In this document: positions 23,066 to 33,765 of the stretch, piece after piece | Position numbering within the stretch: the stretch's first letter is position 1 | Layout: every line of letters begins with the position of its first letter | NCBI GenBank assembly: GCA_025738555.1 | Contig: JAOVFP010000018.1 | Coordinates: 496,001-560,000, forward strand | Source of the DNA: Cyathus striatus | Taxonomy: Eukaryota > Basidiomycota > Agaricomycetes > Agaricales > Nidulariaceae | Length of the DNA stretch: 64,000 bases | Reading direction: 5' to 3' | The notes under the pieces: generated by a model | What the model was told of the DNA's origin: nothing | The model's input: only the letters and a program-made list of their open reading frames with translations | The model's database searches: none | Position numbers and translations under genes: made by a program

Positions 23066-23943
23066 ATGAAGCCTATCAGAGGTGGTAGTGAACGGTATGT
23101 ACCGCAAAGCATCTATTTGATAGTTATAGACGTTAAGTTTTTAATAGACTAGCGTGGCAATCAAGCCAATCGTCTAGCCAGCCAGTAGCGCAATCCAGCC
23201 AATCGTCTTACCAGCCAGTAGCACAATCCAGCCAATCGTCTTACCAGCCAGTAGCACAATCCAGCCAATCGTCCTACCAGCCAGTAGCGCAATCCAGCCA
23301 GTCATCCTACCAACCAATAGCACAGTACGCCAATGGAATCCAACCGCAAGAAACAATGTTGCCTCCACTCGACATTCCACTGTATTCATTCGATATGAAT
23401 AATCAAAGGCGTACAGGAAATACGCTTCCCAGCGAGCCTCGCGCAACGTTCGCTCCTCTTCCCCCTCTTGGCGGGTATTCAGTGGCAATACACCCCCTTA
23501 TTGCCTATGGTTCCAGGTGGCTTATTGAGCACGACGTTACTCAGCCACCGTTCAGTGGCTTATTAATATCGCCAAGTTATAGCACACCTAGCCAGTGGCT
23601 ATCTGAGAACGCAACTACACCGGGCCTCGCCTGTCTTACCATTTACTTCCAGCCAATCGACAAGTACCTCGTTGTACATTCAGCGGACCGCCCAACAGTT
23701 ACGATCTATGACGTCCTTCATTCAGTCTACGAAGCAGCACACGCGGCGGTCCTGCAGAGGACTGATCACCATCTTCTTTCCCCTCAGATTGATGGGTGGC
23801 ACCAGGGCGTGTCAGCGCAGGGTCTAGAAGCGCGCCGATTTTCAAAAGCTGTCTTCCAATCGTTGTTTAATGGCCGCCAGAGGTGGGGTGGACTCACCGC
23901 AAGTAAAAGTCACGCCGATATTTGGACTCTCCATACGAAATAG
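23066..23943 (+). CDS. DUF6699-like protein, paralogue 5 (11-residue repeats)
   Basis: I read two exons, 23,066-23,094 and 23,148-23,943, joined across a GTATGT...ATAG intron to give about 274 aa. A likely 5'-leader intron (GTAAGT near 22,995, acceptor near 23,054) precedes the ATG. Residues about 14-68 are five copies of an 11-residue unit of the form QSSQSSYQPVA. The core follows: IHPLIAYGSRWL, HDVTQPP, ENATTPG, a VVHSADRPTVTIYDVLHSVY strand and helix, FNGRQRWGGL and DIWTLHTK. The HPLhxYGSxxLhxxDhT block is shared with the copy at 36,076, which makes these two the closest relatives in the window. The splice model is my own and keeps the frame open throughout. The function is unknown. Confidence 0.78.
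23158..23322 (+). repeat. 33-bp coding minisatellite, five units
   Basis: Five tandem 33-bp units, each starting CAATCCAGCCAATCGTC or a close variant, lie inside the second exon of paralogue 5 and keep the frame (11 codons each). The middle copies are nearly identical and the outer ones more diverged, as expected for a repeat that changes number by slippage or unequal exchange. Confidence 0.9.
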
Positions 23944-24420: not shown

Positions 24421-24425
24421 ACTAT
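24421..24425. repeat. Left target-site duplication (ACTAT)
   Basis: ACTAT stands directly before the left inverted repeat and is repeated directly after the right inverted repeat at 33,761-33,765. Confidence 0.85.
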
Positions 24426-24786
24426 TACGGTTGCCGAGCCGTCTCAGCCAGGATTTCAAAAGTTGAAGTTCAATATACGACTTGACTCCACACTTAAATG
24501 AACATTACCTAAGTATTAAATGAAGGGTCTACTGGTCACCGTAATCACCGTGGTCGCCGGGTCGTCGGTCATCGTGGTCATCGCAGTCATCGTGGTCATC
24601 GTGGTCATCGTGGTCGGCGAATTATTACCGACGTCCACGAACTAATGCCTTAATTCTCGGTGGGCATGGTGAGTGTGTTGGTTCATGAGCTGAGCATGGC
24701 GTCGGTGATTCCAAGGTAATGGTGCCTGAATTCTTGGTGAGTGTCGCTCCCATCGTGATGATGTGTGACTCGTGAGCGGTGTGTAT
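24426..24786 (+). repeat. Left terminal inverted repeat (361 bp)
   Basis: It matches the reverse complement of 33,400-33,760 over its full length without gaps. I count about four differences, all transitions. It contains a GTCATCGTG-type short tandem array near 24,541-24,622. Weaker similarity between the ends continues to about 24,851. Confidence 0.9.
24541..24622 (+). repeat. 9-bp tandem array inside the left TIR
   Basis: Variants of the nonamer GTGGTCATC are repeated about eight to nine times. The same array in reverse complement lies at about 33,564-33,645 in the right TIR. Such subterminal arrays often bind the transposase; that role here is inference. Confidence 0.75.
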
Positions 24787-24965
24787 GGTTCTCGGTGGGC
24801 GTGGCGAGTGTGTTGGTTCGTGAGCTGAGCATGGCGTCGGTGATTCCAAGGTGTTTCGTGAGTGCTCGAGTAGTAACTTTTCCGTTATAATGAAAGTAGC
24901 ATACGCTCAAAGTACTTGTCCATCCGTTGCCCACTCAATACACTGACCTTCCTTAGTATTCACAT

Positions 24966-26573
24966 ATGACTGATAAAACCAATAACAACATGGCTGGTAA
25001 AAACCAGTATACAGAGTGCCGTGAGTCCCGATTTTTTGGGAATTTGCATGAGGATAGTCTACCAATAATATCTGTATGTTAGCACCAGCAAATGACCCTA
25101 TCTTCCTAGAAGCTATGGAGAAATACCACCGCGAAGCTGTTACTAACCGTGATGAAATCTCTGAACGCCTGTTGGCAGAGTATGGGTTAAAGGTGTCGTA
25201 CGTCCCGCAAGAGTTTTAGAAGTTAAGAATACGATATGAAGAAGTACTAACATCTCAAATTCCAGCCCAGCGACGGTTGTTAGACGACGAAAGGCAATGG
25301 GATTAAATGCAGGTGGCCTTACAACCAAGTACACCCCTGAGCTCGTCAAGAGGCAAGCAGTTCTGGACGCAATGGCTGCAGATCCTGCTGGAAACCAAGG
25401 ACCACGAACGATGAGAGAAGACATAGCAAGGAAGAACGGACTTATCCTTACTCGGTTTGTGACTTTAAATTGATATTATGATAACATATTTTCTGATAAC
25501 TTGTTAGTGACTATGTTACTGCTGAAATGAAGCGGCAGGCTCCACAGGGATTTGAGACTCGCAGACCAGAGATCAAGAAACCACGACGGGTAGCCCTTGT
25601 TTCACTTGGTCCAAACCATGAGTGGTCAGCGGATGGACACGATAAGCTTTCTGCCATTGGCTTTCCGATCTGGGGAGTCAGAGACAAATGGTCAGGTAAA
25701 TGGCTTGGACTCTGGGTGGTCCCTAACAACCGTCTCAAGCTATCTATTGGATATCTCTATCTTGACCTTATCGAGAAAACTGGTGGTAAGAATACAGCAT
25801 CTATTCTTGTGCTGATCATTATACTTACATATATTACTACTATGCCTCAGGAATACCTATCCAAATGACAACCGACTGTGGATCAGAATTAGGAAAAGTC
25901 TTTGAGCTTTCAAATGCACTTCGGTACCTAATTAATCACTCAATTTATTTCAGGGCTAATGAATATTGTCTTATAGCGAGCTCTTTGCTCATGACTTGTC
26001 TCTTGACGAGCTTCCTGCCCATGTATTCATCAAAAGCGTGCACAACATTGTAATTGAACGAGGCTGGCTGCGACTGAGACTTCAATGGGGTGAGAATGTC
26101 AAAATATTCTATGAGGGCGGGAAACACTTGTTTAATCCTATGGATTTTAAGCAGAAGTGAGTTTTTTTCACTGGTATTATCTATCTATCCAGTGTATTCA
26201 TAGTATCGTGACCCTCAGCAACCTTGTACAATGGCTGTGGCCAAAACTCATCCAACAGGAGCTTGATGAGCTTCTAGTAAAGTTCAATTCCCACCGCGTT
26301 CGGTTTGATCAAAACAAGAAGCTTCCATCGGGAGCATCGCCAAACGCTGCATACTCCCTTTTTGAAAAATACGGTGCCGAGGATTGTCGAACAGAAGTTG
26401 ATACGGAGGTCATACGCCACCTGAAAGATAAAATTGGTGGTAAGGATTTAATCAGGTTTGTTTCTGAGGAATATGAGCACAAGGCCCAAGGAATTTATGA
26501 TACGCTCAACATATCTAAACTATCCTTCGACAACATTTGGAATGTATATTCTGAAATGTTAACGATGGTGTAG
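24966..26573 (+). CDS. Integrase-core (DDE) transposase of the long-TIR element
   Basis: My model has seven exons: 24,966-25,020; 25,083-25,197; 25,266-25,454; 25,508-25,785; 25,851-25,923; 25,977-26,156; 26,219-26,573. All introns are GT-AG and the frame is intact for 414 aa. The N-terminal part has a helix-turn-helix-like segment (TVVRRRKAMGL, then a DPAGNQGPRTMREDIA block). The catalytic core shows EWSADGHDK (first Asp), GFPIWGVRDKWSG, LWVVPNNR, TTDCGSE (second Asp) and SVHNIVIERGWLRL (Glu), the D-D-E arrangement of the retroviral-type integrase fold. This matches the integrase-core proteins found in many copies in agaric genomes. It should act in the nucleus on the TIRs. The ATG lies 180 bp inside the left TIR. 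I see no premature stop, so the gene may be functional. Confidence 0.88.
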
Positions 26574-26845
26574 AGTTGTCTTGGAGTTGTCATACATTTG
26601 TGAGTGCTACTGAGTCTGACGAGAAAGTACCTGTTTCCCATTAAAACCCAGTAGATTAACACCTGCTGATTGTGATTCAACTCATCTTTCAGTCAAAGTG
26701 CCTTTTGGCCTACCGATACTTCCTTGTTTCTTATGTTTTTGTTTTGCTTTCGTTGTATTCCATAATCATTTGATATTATGGTGCCAGCTGTGCCGCCAGC
26801 AGAGAATGGGATCGTATACTTAAGAATCCCATGCTTTCAGTAAAC

Positions 26846-28107
26846 TCAAATTAAGAAATAAAAAGAAATATATATTAAGAAAGGACGTAAGACACTGTTG
26901 ACATAAGATATATCAAGAATGTGGAAGTACGCAAGACCAAGGGGTGTCAATGATGATAAAGGTGAAGGGCCGAAAGCAAAGCAAGGGCGGGAGAGAGGAA
27001 CCAGAGGAACGGATGGAAGACAGTGAGGAGGGGAGGAAGGGAGGAGGGGAGGAGGGGGGGAAAGGACAACAAGCAGGAAAGACCACAACGAGCGGTGTAC
27101 GATGTCAATGACGTCGAGACCACCACAACGGAGGGGGGTTTCCCGGTGGTTGGCATGGAGTGGTGTGGGAGGAGGAGGTGGTGGTGGTTGACGTGGCGTC
27201 GATGTCCAAACGACGGGTGTAGGAGAGATAGCAAGGGCGAGGAGGGAGGGAGAGAGAGGGGGGGGGCGAGGGCGGAGGAGGATCATGGCAACATCGAGAT
27301 GCTGGTCATGAGAGAGCTGGGCAGTATGCGTAGGGGGACTATCAGCCTCCATGCCGTGGAGAATATCATCGAGGGGGAGCTCAATGGTAGGGCGAGAAAT
27401 GCAGAAAGAATCATTAGCTGCGGAGGGGTTGAGCCCTTCGCCGTAGTTCATGGAATTCGTGAGCGTGGGTTGAGCAAAAAGCAATGCAGTAGGGCCGAAA
27501 TCGTTACTGAAGAAAGAGTCGAATTTGAGAGAATGGTAAACACACGAAGCCATGGCAGCGGCGGAAGTGGTTTGGGAAGTGCGAGGAGGGTCTTTATCGT
27601 TCGCTTCGTCCTCCACGATGTTCATGTCATCATGCTCGTCAGCGGGGGCAGCAGGACCGGAGGTGGAGTCATCAACCTGCGCGTGAGCACTTGTTGAACT
27701 CTGGGGAAGGTTTGAGGTCGGGCTTCTTGAGGGGAAAGTTGGGTGCAGCAGGAGCGGGCTGGTCAACGCTAAAGGTGAACTGCATGCATTTGATAGTGCC
27801 CGGCTTGGCATTCTAGCTGGCTTCGCGGGAGCACTCCTTCTCGACTGCGCGCTGGCGGATGAGGTCGGTAGAGTGGTTGCGCTTGAAGTCAGGAGCCTCG
27901 AGCTCTTCGGTGCTTCTGAGACAATAAGAGTGAGTTAGCGACGGTTGGGCCAATTAGGGTATAGGGTTTAAATGTGTGGGGACGGATTTCAAAAGCGGGA
28001 AAAAGAGGAGCAGGAGAGGGGCAGGGCAGGGCAGGGCAGGGGAGGGGAATTTACGAACCTTCCTTTTTCCTTGTTGAGTTTATCGCCCATGCATTCGGAG
28101 ACGTCAT
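26846..28107 (-). CDS. Hypothetical Ser/Pro-rich protein within the transposon
   Basis: This is a tentative two-exon model (28,059-28,107 and 26,846-27,915) giving 372 aa with an open frame across the splice. The protein is Ser/Pro/Ala-rich, with an acidic patch (ADEHDDMNIVEDEANDKD), a stretch of about 60 residues that looks less repetitive (SLKFDSFFSNDFGP onward), a poly-Pro run and a hydrophobic C-terminus. I do not recognise a domain. The alternatives are that it is captured host sequence, or an accidental open frame in GC-skewed DNA. It is convergent with the transposase gene. The intron contains a GGGCA pentanucleotide run. Confidence 0.3.
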
Positions 28108-30459
28108 GTTAATGTTAACGCGACAACAACGACAACAACGACAACGTAAGGAAGGACGGGTGCTTGAAGATGTGGTATCAATGCCATTCTTGTCAAAGGC
28201 GTGGCCGTCGTCTAGATACAGCGGAAGAGAGAGGAGGTAGGATGAGGACGTAAGTGAGGGTGGTCGTAATGGCTGTCAAAGAGGTGGCTCGTGTGGATGC
28301 GTGGCAGCACTGGAGGAACCGTGGTGGTAGATGGTAGGATAGGGAGGCGCGGTAGGCGAGGTGAGTGGAGATGGCGGTGCAGTGGTGGAGACGGCGGGAG
28401 AGGACGAGTGATCGTTGAGAGAAAAGAAAGGAAAAGGGGATGAGAAACGAACCTGAAATGCACTACTCCTTGCCCAACTATCGCACATTTCAAGAATCTT
28501 AGTGACCTTGTGAAGGCACTGGATCGTTGTCCTTGTTTCACCATGCTCTATACTACCCGCGGTAGGGAAAAGCACAGCAGATAACCAGCGGGTATTTTTA
28601 GACCAACCCACACGGGTGCCAAGGGTTCAATGCGAAACGTGTTGTTTGACGCTTCCGTTCTCTCTCATCGCCTCTGCTGTTCGGTCTGCAATCACCAAGT
28701 ACTCTCTTGCTCTCACTCTCGTTTACTTCTCTTCCCTGGTACTGGCACCTCTCTGTTGTGAAGCATACTCTTCAATGGCTATGCCTCAATAGGCTTTACT
28801 CTGTCTCTGAGTGGGTATGGGATGCACCACATCACGTCCAGGATTTCTTGCCAACATTTCGACATGTATGGCCAGGTGAGTCCTTTCAACGCACCCTTTC
28901 CCCGCCCATCTGTTGACCTTTTGCCCACTCCCTCTCCTCCCCATCTCCCTTCACGCTGTATCACCGCTTCCCTCGACACTATGTAGGGCACGTCATCTTG
29001 ACGTACCAACAGCCTAACGTCGCCATTCCACCTTCCTGCTCAATGTCCCGGAAGTGCGAAGTCCGCTTTCCTCAACGGCCCCGGGCCCTCTCCCCCGGCT
29101 TCTCTCCCTAGCCCCAGCCACCGCCTCCCGCATTTCCGCCCCCCTCCCCAACGTCGTCTTGACCACCACCAGCACCTCGACCATATCAACTGACACCTCG
29201 TTGCCCTGTCCCCGCTACCAGTGCCGTCTTGCACCACCCCGCCACCACCACCACCACCCCACCTTCTATGACCATGGCATCACCGTCTCCCACCTCCCAC
29301 CACCACCCTTTTATGATGGCATCTCCGTCCCGAATCACACCATCACCTCATCTCCTACCTCCGCCTTACCATCTCACACCACCACCTCGCACCTACGTTT
29401 TCCTCCTCTTCCTCCTCCTCCTCCCACACAAGCAGTAATATCGTCTCGATGTCTCGCCCTACAACAGCATCCACCGCCTCCCTCACTTACGTCTCCAGCG
29501 GCATTGCAGCCGTTTCTCCAACTGCCACCAAATCCTCTCTCACATATCCCCTTGTCTATCTGTCTGTCTGCAGATTGACTAGGTGATTATCGGATTGTCT
29601 AGGTTGACAAGACTCGGACACTCCACAACCCCTCCAACAATATGTACTTCACAGCTTGCATACGAATGTCCCTTCGCTCTACACCATTCTCCAAACCAGT
29701 CTCTTCTGCTATTTTCTTCTTCCCATCCAGCCAATATATTACTCCCGCATATAATGCTCTGCATTAATCCCCACTTACTGCTTTCTTTGTCTTGAAGTCC
29801 CTTCCTCCTCCCTCCCTCCTTGACACCTGTCCCATTGGTAATAACAGCATCAATGCAGCATGCTCCATCATCCAACCCCCTCATTCCTCTTCGTGGCGTT
29901 GTTACGCCTCGTGGACGACAGTGTCGTCCGGTCTGCTCCCCTGCGTCGCAGTGGTGATGCCTCATTTCGCTGGCCCACTCCCATTATGAGTGTTATACAA
30001 TGATATGTAGCACTACTGTAGTCTGTAGCGCTGTGAAGTACTAGTATAATGTATTTACAAGAACAATCCACGGTACTATCTACAATAGAATCCAATCCCA
30101 ACCTTCCTCAAGCCTTCATGTCTCGTTTACAATCAACATCAAATATGCATTCCATTGTATAAGTTCAGACCTCAATAGACATTAGTTTAGGATTTGTATA
30201 TTTAAGAGAGATTCCTCAGACCTCCATCTCTGAGCATCTAAATTCACGCAAGATAAATGCTATTTCAAAGGATAATCCGATGAAGTGTATATTAGGCCGA
30301 CACATCGACATTTACTCAACATATATATAGGTTCAAAAGAATAAAGCATGTATTAAGAATATAAAAAAACCTGTCCGCCTTAAAAAACCCAGTGGGAAAA
30401 AATAGGTGGCAGGATTAGAAAATGGTTAAGGTGTACGTGCATGCATGCATGCATAGAAG
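28108..30459. other. Transposon interior with possible captured gene fragments
   Basis: No complete gene is clear. The forward strand from about 28,650 to 29,580 is very C/T-rich, with His/Pro/Ser low-complexity translations. Some segments read like isolated exons, for example a reverse-strand piece ending near 28,455 (TRWLSAVLFPTAGSIE start) and a forward piece near 28,740-28,875 (SEWVWDAPHHVQDFL) followed by a GTGAGT. They may be fragments captured from host genes. GCATGCATGCAT lies at 30,439-30,452. Confidence 0.35.
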
Positions 30460-32959
30460 TTACATCTCCCAGGGGCGATGTCTTTCCACGTCTCTCTGCT
30501 GTAACTCCATCATTTTTGGTTCATCATGTAGATGAAGGGAGCGACAAATTGCATTACAGCTATGCTCTCGATAGAACTTATCAATTTGGGTTCTTCCCTT
30601 GTCCCAATACCCGAGTGGTTCTTCACCCGCATTGCTAATGATATAACGTGTGTGTAAGTATGTGAATCTCTTCACAATTATAGCAAAAGACAACAACTTA
30701 CCGACTTGGAGAGTGCGCTTGAGGGTCAAAGAGTGTCAACCGCCCAGATGGTGATATCATCCCTGTGAAAACCACTATTAGACACAGTTCTAACTTTATA
30801 CACCGCCAAATGGTGTGTACAGCAAGAAATTACCTTGTATATCTGCAAGTAAGAATGTACCATGGCTGTCCACAAGAGCATGATGGATATATGCATCAAC
30901 AGCGCGCCCAAGTGTATCAGTGTTGTTCACAACATCTCCATTGCCGCAGAACTTTCGTTCTTGATAAGCTCCACCAATTGGAAGTAAAGGGGCGATCAGG
31001 AAGTCCGGCCAGATTAATGGACGTGACTCAATTGTAGTTACATCTTCAAAATCACTTATAGAGCCAACCACTCGAGCAAGGTTGGGAATATTCCATTGCA
31101 TTTCTGAAAATGTATTATGATTACTTCAGTACATTTATGAAAACAAAACAAAAACGACTTGCCTGGAAGGCCCCGAATTTCATATGCTGATGCTCGTTTC
31201 AGGAATGAGTCAAGAAAGTACTGAGCCATAACAGTAATCTTCATTTCAGCTACGAGATCATCTCTGTTGTGATGTGAGGTCGAGCAATGTTTATTTTGGC
31301 GTATAGCCACATCCTTTTCATCAACACGTCCCTATTTGTAACAATGAGTTATTTTGTTGAAATGTAGAAACAGTAGAATCGAAATAGTTACCTGGAAGGC
31401 ATACTTCATTAGACCAGAGGAGATATAACCACCATTTGGTACTCCTTCCTTCTTGTATACTTGCCAATTTTTCGCAACACTTATTTTTTCGACAGCTTCT
31501 CCATCTTTTGTAATGATTTTACCACTGATATCTGTATAAAATGTTAAACGCCGGAAGCTGAAGTCTGTGAATGTGATGCTAATTTCACTGGGCCTATAAC
31601 AGCTTGAATATCGTGCAGATGATGAAGTGTGTACTGATGAAGAAGTGCTGCGTGCTGATGCATGTCTAGGATTGCCAGTAGTACGAGAGCTTGAAGGAAC
31701 CATGGCAGCAGAAGAAGTGGAAGCATTTGCACACATTCGGCTTTTGGATGTCGGTACCATACTGGTACTACTGGCACCCACTTCTCCCCATTTTCGCTTT
31801 TTACCTAGCTCATCATCAAAATCATCCTAAAACACACGCAATCAGCTACCAGTACAAAAGAACTTAGGCATGTAACGTACATAAAAGTCATTCAAATCAT
31901 ATTGGAATGCCAACAAGCGCAGGGTGAGCATTGATGTCAGGGCCCTATCTGATTTCACTGGCAAAACTAGGTCACGCTTCAAGTGGTTTAACATATCAGA
32001 AAGGCTCCCCGTAATGTGTTCATCCTTTAGCTTTACTATGCATGATCCACTTAACTGAATAATAAACATGCATTTGCTCCTGCAAGGAAGCGAAGTGAAT
32101 ACCCTGATGAAACTGATTGTGATATTAATATATCAAAATTGAGAGCCTACCTTATGAACACCACTTCACCCGGGAAATGGTTTGGGCACAGCCCAAATGA
32201 AGATTTCACCATAACCATAAGTAGATCAAGTGTTTCGTCAGCACCATCAGTTGTCGAGCAAGTAATATTCACTGGAGGCAGGGGATGCTATATATGTATT
32301 CATGTAAAACTTGTCAAACATATAAGAACATTGTAAGATCTCACTTTCTTTCCAGGCTTCCCATCACGGCTAACCCAGAGACCACATCGAATTACGATTG
32401 CTTCTCCCTTCGCTTGTTTCTTAAGTGCTGCTGTCTTTGCTTTAATATCTGCAGCCTTCGTGGTAGTAGCTTGTGTTTCTGGTCCCTTTGGTTTGTTCAG
32501 TCGGTTGGAGGTAACTTGCGTTGAATGATGTGCCATTCTTTTCTCAAGAAATATTTTCACAGCATCAGAGCCTAATAAATATTCGTTAGAAGCGATAGAA
32601 TTCAGATAGGAAGAGATCATTTACATTCAGTGCGAGACAATGTATCTACAGGAGATAATTAGCTGATATTGTTATAATAGAAATATGTTTAGTACCTTCA
32701 GAGAGTTTTGGCAAGCACGTTCCACAAACAGGATCAGAAAGGAACCTAAACGAAATACCACAGCCATCGCATTGTGGTTCCTCCTATACATATTGAAATT
32801 AGTTATAGCTTATCAAGAGCACATAGAGTTATAATGGGGACATACAGTGATAGTTTTTTTCTCAGCAGTGGATGTAACTTTCATTCTTTTCGTGCACTTT
32901 GTGCACGTTTGAAGGTCTAGGAAGGGGAACACTTTTGAACAAGAATCGCAAACCCCCAT
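30460..32959 (-). CDS. Alpha-type protein kinase carried by the transposon
   Basis: My ten-exon model (32,959-32,846; 32,783-32,696; 32,571-32,345; 32,287-32,151; 32,079-31,881; 31,826-31,392; 31,331-31,163; 31,103-30,834; 30,762-30,702; 30,634-30,460) is in frame throughout and gives 624 aa. One intron is GC-AG (donor GCAAGT at 31,162). The N-terminus has CxxC pairs (CDSC, CTKC, then CDGC, CGTC), zinc-finger-like. A Ser/Thr-rich linker follows. The C-terminal third carries alpha-kinase hallmarks: FLLADIQG, LTLFDPQAHS, GYWDKG and the zinc-binding HSCNAICRSL tail. Alpha-kinases such as eEF2 kinase and myosin heavy chain kinase phosphorylate Ser/Thr. The position I would align with the invariant Lys reads VAIRQ (Arg), so activity is uncertain. 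The gene starts 441 bp inside the right TIR. Confidence 0.88.
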
Positions 32960-33399
32960 TTTTCAGATGTGTATACAGACCACAGAAAACACACTGGGCT
33001 TATATACTTCAGTGTAGACTTAAGATGGAGCGGTGAACTTCAAAATATCAAGTCCGGAGCCCCTAATCCCGGTCATTCTCATCCAGGATATTATGCCACC
33101 TACAAATTTTATTGAATGTTGTCTACGTTCTCTGCAAAACAACTTGTATGTTGCATACCAGCTATGGTAAAGCAGAGTATGCTAAATTTTCATTCTGTGC
33201 TAGTTTAAATTAATATTCATAACGGGCTCACAGGAGATTTTGGGAACTGTCAATACATTGTTGTTTGACTCTTGAGTGGAGGACCTCGAATCACTGACAC
33301 TATGCTTGGCTCACAAACCAACACTCACCACGCTCACTGCTCACTGCTCACTGTGTCACCATTCACCATGATTACCATGCTCGCCACTCACAGACTACT

Positions 33400-33760
33400 A
33401 TACACACTGCTCACAAGTCACACATCATCACGATGGGAGCGACACTCACCAAGAATTCAGGCACCATTACCTTGGAATCACCGACACCATGCTCAGCTCA
33501 TGAACCAACACACTCACCATGCCCACCGAGAATTAAGGCATTAGTTCGTGGACGTCGGTAATAATTCGCCGACCACAATGACCACGATGACCACGATGAC
33601 TGCGATGACCACGATGACCGACGACCCGGCGACCACGGTGATTACGGTGACCAGTAGACCCTTCATTTAATACTTAGGTAATGTTCATTTAAGTGTGGAG
33701 TCAAGTCGTATATTGAACTTCAACTTTTGAAATCCTGGCTGAGACGGCTCGGCAACCGTA
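33400..33760 (-). repeat. Right terminal inverted repeat (361 bp)
   Basis: It is the reverse complement of 24,426-24,786, colinear and without gaps, ending ...GGCAACCGTA at 33,760. Diverged similarity extends inward to about 33,290. Confidence 0.9.
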
Positions 33761-33765
33761 ACTAT
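33761..33765. repeat. Right target-site duplication (ACTAT)
   Basis: ACTAT directly follows the right TIR and matches 24,421-24,425 exactly. Confidence 0.85.

Follow-up and report, generated by a model that had tools for sequence, protein, structure and literature searches.

A single DNA transposon occupies positions 24426-33760 of the window analysed here, a stretch of 64,000 nucleotides from the agaric Cyathus striatus (contig JAOVFP010000018.1, positions 496,001 to 560,000). The element carries a transposase gene on the plus strand and an alpha-kinase gene on the minus strand, both with open reading frames. It is bordered by terminal inverted repeats (TIRs) of 361 nt, the left one (24426-24786, plus strand) opening with TACGGTTGCCGAG and the right one (33400-33760, minus strand) closing with CTCGGCAACCGTA. 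Counted inwards from 24426 and 33760, the two arms feature four mismatches, only at positions 184, 275, 346 and 353. The termini, TACGG..CCGTA, are common to 13 short paired elements of the same genome. Perfect 5-bp target site duplications (TSDs), ACTAT, are found on both flanks (24421-24425 and 33761-33765). The initial annotation had described a complete unit with such repeats, such a duplication and two intact genes, and all of this is borne out. The element is best explained as a complete cut-and-paste transposon of the IS3EU type, which was probably inserted recently in its agaric host.

The transposase gene (24990-26573, plus strand) was delineated by exon reading and by its Pfam rva_4 match. 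It consists of seven exons (24990-25020, 25083-25194 or to 25197, 25266-25454, 25508-25785, 25851-25923, 25977-26156 and 26204-26573), as first annotated for the integrase-core gene, which has GT-AG introns and no internal stop and encodes about 410 residues. The short exon 1 is inferred from the copy on C2 and from the family consensus; the Cyathus relative P0001 is annotated with a different exon 1. The model lacking exon 1 (402 residues) matches PF24764 at E 9.4e-9 (35.7 bits, cut-off 26), and D153, D212 and E255, assigned by motif, are candidate DDE residues. The closest relative in the protein set is P0001, a Cyathus striatus protein 95% identical to the window transposase. Chains of the CAST/Tn7 transpososome, MuA and retroviral integrases are among the top matches of the P0001 structure model (pLDDT 85) in a fold search, in which 3 of 161 matches reach E 0.001 or better, with TM scores of about 0.3 and large root mean square deviations. 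As a single cysteine is present in the first 158 residues, there is no HHCC domain. The modelled transposase has an RNase H/DDE integrase fold, with an IS3/IS481-like core devoid of HHCC.

The alpha-kinase-like gene (30460-32959, minus strand) encodes 631 residues without a stop. It is intact, as had been claimed, but consists of eleven exons rather than ten because of a 21-nt micro-exon; one of its introns is GC-AG. PF02816 matches the protein with 61.5 bits, against a cut-off of 21.3, and places the kinase domain at residues 399-604. The NH2 terminus is cysteine-rich, with CxxC motifs at C4, C19, C43 and C58, and the domain retains the DIQG and FDPQ motifs and the zinc ligands H-x-C-x3-C.

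The two genes are separated by a 3.9-kb spacer (26574-30459) made of low-complexity purine and pyrimidine tracts, in which no gene is recognised. A stop-to-stop frame of 362 codons, which starts at 27934 of the spacer region and is read on the minus strand, has no Pfam match. In a Pfam search covering 12 of the 20 printed spacer frames (86 to 362 residues), no match at E 0.1 was obtained, and a third gene was set aside on this basis. Within the same scope, no TET/JBP gene was recognised between the transposase and the kinase.

No named superfamily with both an integrase-type transposase and an alpha-kinase was known to the initial annotation. IS3EU is such a superfamily, and the pairing is in print for TET-bearing families (PMC12730594). 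IS3EU elements have TA..TA termini and TSDs usually of 6 bp (PMC10045372). According to section 3.1.3 of PMC12730594, TET-bearing IS3EU elements of Pucciniales end in TAYGG..CCRTA and have TIRs of more than 30 bp, a pattern with which the termini and the 361-nt TIRs of the window element agree. In all TET-bearing families the transposase and the alpha-kinase are oppositely oriented, with TET between them (Kojima 2025, PMC12730594, section 4.1), at the position held by the spacer in the window. On comparison with published descriptions, rather than with Repbase sequences, the window element is assigned to IS3EU. Its 5-bp TSD, against the usual 6 bp, speaks against this assignment. TSDs, with flanks read by eye, are of 4 bp (two elements), 5 bp (four) and 6 bp (one) in seven short relatives, and of 6 bp in two of three elements of a sister TATGG family, the third having none. 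Transib elements have 5-bp TSDs and Ginger elements 4-bp TSDs; both were set aside for the window element because its ends and rva_4 core fit IS3EU better.

The TET-bearing families of Pucciniales and Tuber thus resemble the window element in the opposed orientation of the two genes and, as stated for those of Pucciniales, in the ends and in TIRs exceeding 30 bp (PMC12730594). In contrast, the window element has no recognised TET/JBP gene, a TSD of 5 rather than 6 bp, 361-nt TIRs and an agaric host, and its genome also features co-directional pairs and kinases devoid of the beta3 lysine. Styx, an IS3EU-like element of Zymoseptoria, likewise combines an IS3EU-type transposase with extra genes, but these encode GATA, CCHC and DUF3577 domains, and the passage on coding content mentions no kinase (PMC10853768). 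In KDZ transposons with TET/JBP, such as Kyakuja, which are DNA transposons of fungi as well, an enzyme gene also recurs next to the transposase, but transposase, termini and enzyme are all unlike those of the window element (PMC12730594). IS3EU has been reported in Ganoderma (PMC8955403), and section 3.2 of PMC12730594 names no TET-bearing IS3EU for Agaricomycotina. In the literature on IS3EU, alpha-kinases and fungal transposons we found no published report of a transposase and alpha-kinase pair in Agaricomycetes. What is new here is that the pairing, already printed for TET-bearing IS3EU, recurs in an agaric, in three gene orders.

A whole-genome search (107 Mb) found the long TIR arms once. 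The first 32 nt of the TIR recur as inverted pairs around seven further elements of 885-918 bp, the TIRs of which are about 33 nt long. Pairwise identity among the seven ranges from 0.977 to 1.0, and four of them are identical to three decimals, evidence that such ends were mobile in the recent past. A more relaxed end pattern occurs at 42 genome sites, against 11 for the reversed pattern, and yields 14 forward/reverse pairs, 13 of which are short (0.9-2.3 kb), the 14th being the window element itself. TIR copies that never hold the kinase had been proposed as evidence that the pairing is accidental, and 13 of the 14 paired copies are formally of this type. Yet neither genome-wide transposase search matched anything inside these 13 copies, which therefore look like ordinary non-autonomous derivatives and are not counted against the pairing. 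Complete termini were also sought for L086, the C2 element, and for L087; the paired-end scan gave no convincing pair, and one end of each was recognised. L086 contains, nested between transposase and kinase, a 1.5-kb inverted-repeat unit (L086:3286-4818) with 627-nt arms that are 99% complementary.

The pairing of the two genes recurs across the genome. Five genome searches, with PF02816 and four single proteins, identified 45 kinase loci, and searches with two transposases (the second at E <= 0.01) identified 57 transposase loci, both figures being lower bounds. Within a 10-kb limit, 32 of the 45 kinase loci lie 0.2-6.6 kb from a transposase locus, against 0.49 expected. The pairs are mostly divergent (25), the others being co-directional (4) or convergent (3). 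Four of the kinase queries came from loci beside transposases, so the less biased figure is that obtained without them, in which 11 of 35 PF02816 genome places adjoin matches of the window-type transposase search. Kinase families and transposase lineages correspond to one another. For instance, K-I (the window and C2:372k), together with a weak relative at C10:1872k, is convergent, and in K-II (C17, C1, C13 and C22) the kinase immediately follows the transposase, on the same strand, in all four cases. Divergent pairs characterise K-III (6 of 10) and K-IV (3 of 3). One contig carries two oppositely oriented transposase and kinase pairs that closely resemble each other (C19:2126960-2134536 and C19:2367732-2375310).

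Since just one long-armed copy of the exact window family was found in the genome, the kinase might be thought to lie inside a long-TIR element by accident, in this window only. The pairing is found at 31 other loci, with three gene orders, which rules out such a single-copy accident, and the printed statement for TET-bearing IS3EU (PMC12730594) adds to making chance neighbourhood extremely improbable. The question of recurrence raised in the initial annotation is thus answered in the affirmative, and the pairing helps explain how alpha-kinases spread.

A fifth group comprises 24 kinases known only from PF02816, none of which lies within 10 kb of a window-type transposase. The view that these are host genes was overturned by their common TATGG..CCATA ends and by a divergent transposase match at one offset. 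Eleven of 12 printed copies share the sharp end ..GGCTTTCCATA, and the end pattern occurs at 158 genome sites, against 0 for the control. Among the 100 of these 158 sites that were listed there are at least 32 end pairs, enclosing 16 of the 24 kinases, 11 of which reside in elements 7.2-8.1 kb long. In 12 of 13 elements measured, the K-IV transposase query matches a COOH-terminal transposase motif 1.32-1.37 kb from one end, divergent to the kinase. These matches are weak (E 5e-5 to 1.3e-3) and cover one exon each; in the 13th element the match is at 2.1 kb (E 0.24). A genome search with the PF24764 profile did not find the transposases of these elements.

Three copies of the TATGG family, those of the TSDs reported above, are 2.9 kb long and carry a kinase but no transposase match. 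Their kinases look broken, as evidenced by a stop in the L024 and L028 models and a missing stretch in L025, and for this reason kinase-only elements were rejected as proof of a kinase driving its own spread. Five kinases have no transposase match within 10 kb (E 0.01) but lie in paired termini (C18:2471k, C10:261k, C14:1617k, C6:2837k and C9:2520k). Altogether, 37 of the 45 kinases are either beside an IS3EU-type transposase (32) or inside paired IS3EU-type termini (5). The remaining eight include three near a single terminus (at 1.1, 2.8 and 11 kb), four K-III fragments and one weak match. Several TATGG-family kinases (L041, L042, L044, L047, L022 and L033) feature frequent changes of arginine to tryptophan, glutamine, cysteine, histidine or stop, and in several copies a stop replaces the arginine codon that follows VAVK. 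These changes look like C-to-T decay at CpG sites, perhaps resulting from methylation.

Relatives of the kinase were also found in other species. With the window kinase as sole query against a large protein set, no relative reached E 0.001 among 5965 candidates. A profile of seven kinases retrieved 24 relatives from the same set, two of them named from Agaricomycetes outside Agaricales and seven unnamed; the other 15 bear names that we take to be those of Agaricales species. Two relatives of the C17-type kinase, P0122 and P0129, are on contigs equal in length to those that carry, in the same species, transposases P0099 and P0114 (210,646 in Phlegmacium and 445,315 in Flammula). This suggests that kinase and transposase share a contig in Phlegmacium and Flammula. 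For the other 22 kinases, no contig of equal length was found among the 120 of 213 transposases listed. In the transposase tree, P0099 and P0114 fall with the C17 (K-II) transposase in a 13-row clade with support 100/100. K-III and K-IV transposases form long branches joined to each other in the tree, and their placement is unsure.

Ratios of nonsynonymous to synonymous substitution rates (dN/dS) of about 0.1-0.15 were obtained among diverged copies of five kinase families (0.40/3.2, 0.30/3.0, 0.19/2.2, 0.14/1.0 and 0.125/0.86). Judged from these coding sequences, the kinase is under purifying selection.

The conservation of the kinase does not extend to the ATP-binding beta3 lysine in every family. 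Lysine-bearing kinases are found in K-III. By sequence alignment rather than from a solved structure, the corresponding position in the window kinase is R418, in the motif VAIR (415-418). Among the 24 relatives found with the profile, 17 were aligned, and the 16 alignable ones have threonine (13), alanine (2) or glycine (1) at this position, and never lysine. In a sister family, that of C17, and its kin in other fungi, threonine prevails and no copy read has lysine. In the structure model of P0122, the corresponding Thr350 lies inside a strand (345-352) ahead of a long helix. TRPM7, MHCK A, eEF2K and ALPK1, which are about 20% identical to the window kinase, differ from the window and C17 families, in which the beta3 lysine position is changed. 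In TRPM7, a mutant with the same lysine to arginine substitution is reported to be kinase-dead (PMC8989868).

The kinase could still be an active enzyme in all lineages if another lysine replaced that of beta3. Lysines do occur close after this position (VAIRQNK in the window, VVTQPKDEK in C17), and the retained DIQG, FDPQ and zinc ligands, as well as strong selection, are in keeping with activity. We nevertheless regard this explanation as rather doubtful, given the residues aligned at the beta3 position in both families and the TRPM7 mutant, the mapping to which rests on alignment. The window kinase should thus not be assumed to be active. A non-catalytic role is the likelier one for the window kinase family, as far as its sequences tell. 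The kinase fold is best understood as a working part of the element, which in some lineages has perhaps become a pseudokinase.

The kinase had been viewed at the outset either as cargo or as a working part of transposition. Recurrence, low dN/dS and the match between kinase and transposase lineages speak against cargo, and we consider it probable that IS3EU-type elements have in the alpha-kinase-like gene a constant second gene and a working part rather than accidental cargo. The alternative is that a host alpha-kinase was captured by IS3EU and hitch-hikes passively, with or without benefit to the host. Kinase-only elements of about 2.9 kb with seemingly broken kinases, and the variation in gene order among lineages, would fit such a capture. 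In contrast, passive cargo would hardly account for the low dN/dS between diverged copies in five families, or for kinase families that track transposase lineages, apparently also in two other species; moreover, few kinases in this genome are candidates for independent host genes, since IS3EU-type transposases or termini accompany 37 of 45. We consider passive cargo unlikely.

Several points weigh against a working role of the kinase. The loci are not independent, many being copies of one family, so that the chance figure overstates the number of events; the kinase families number about six or seven. Thirteen of the 45 kinases have no transposase within 10 kb, and 25 of the 57 transposase loci, many of them single weak exon matches, have no kinase within this distance. 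At 26 other rva_4 loci, no kinase is present over a distance of 50 kb, and hence not all rva_4 transposases are accompanied by one. As to selection, several dS values are saturated, and 4 of 12 pairs, in a set excluding 0.125/0.86, have no finite dS. Closer pairs give higher ratios (0.42 for C17-C1 and 0.68 for C19a-C19b), and some of the gene models compared are partial or hold a stop. The kinase-less rva_4 group includes C1:7030456 and C12:2253918; C1:7030456 and C15:381157 are far from the IS3EU rows in the tree.

The transposase would recognise the 32-nt ends, excise the element and integrate it at a staggered site, mostly of 5 bp. The kinase, with its cysteine-rich NH2 terminus and kinase fold, would act in trans on behalf of the element, either by modulating transposition or by countering silencing by the host. 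Action in trans on one or the other is the likeliest role, in analogy to what section 4.2 of PMC12730594 argues for TET. In lineages that keep the lysine, the kinase may phosphorylate the transposase, chromatin or host factors; in the window lineage, it would more likely be a nucleotide-binding or scaffolding pseudokinase.

A bolder proposal, which we put forward tentatively as possible but short of probable, is that the alpha-kinase is to fungal IS3EU what accessory proteins such as TnsC are to other transposons, a near-obligate partner, and that it diversified with the transposase and became a lysine-less pseudokinase in two families. Expansions of alpha-kinases in mushrooms and rusts would then essentially count transposon genes. 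The alpha-kinase family has been called highly expanded in rusts (PMC4469406, with 79 and 39 in two columns of one table row), and alpha-kinases are listed as enriched in wheat rusts (PMC5295586). One alpha-kinase gene is among 46 genes under diversifying selection (PMC4150398). If such copies belong to transposons, as 37 of 45 seem to do here, the expansion tells more of element activity than of signalling or host infection. Next to TET/JBP, the kinase may be another enzyme used by a DNA transposon of eukaryotes against or with its host, and it offers a testable case of a transposon-borne pseudokinase.

Just outside the element, 33-nt tandem repeats are found at window positions 23125-23322.
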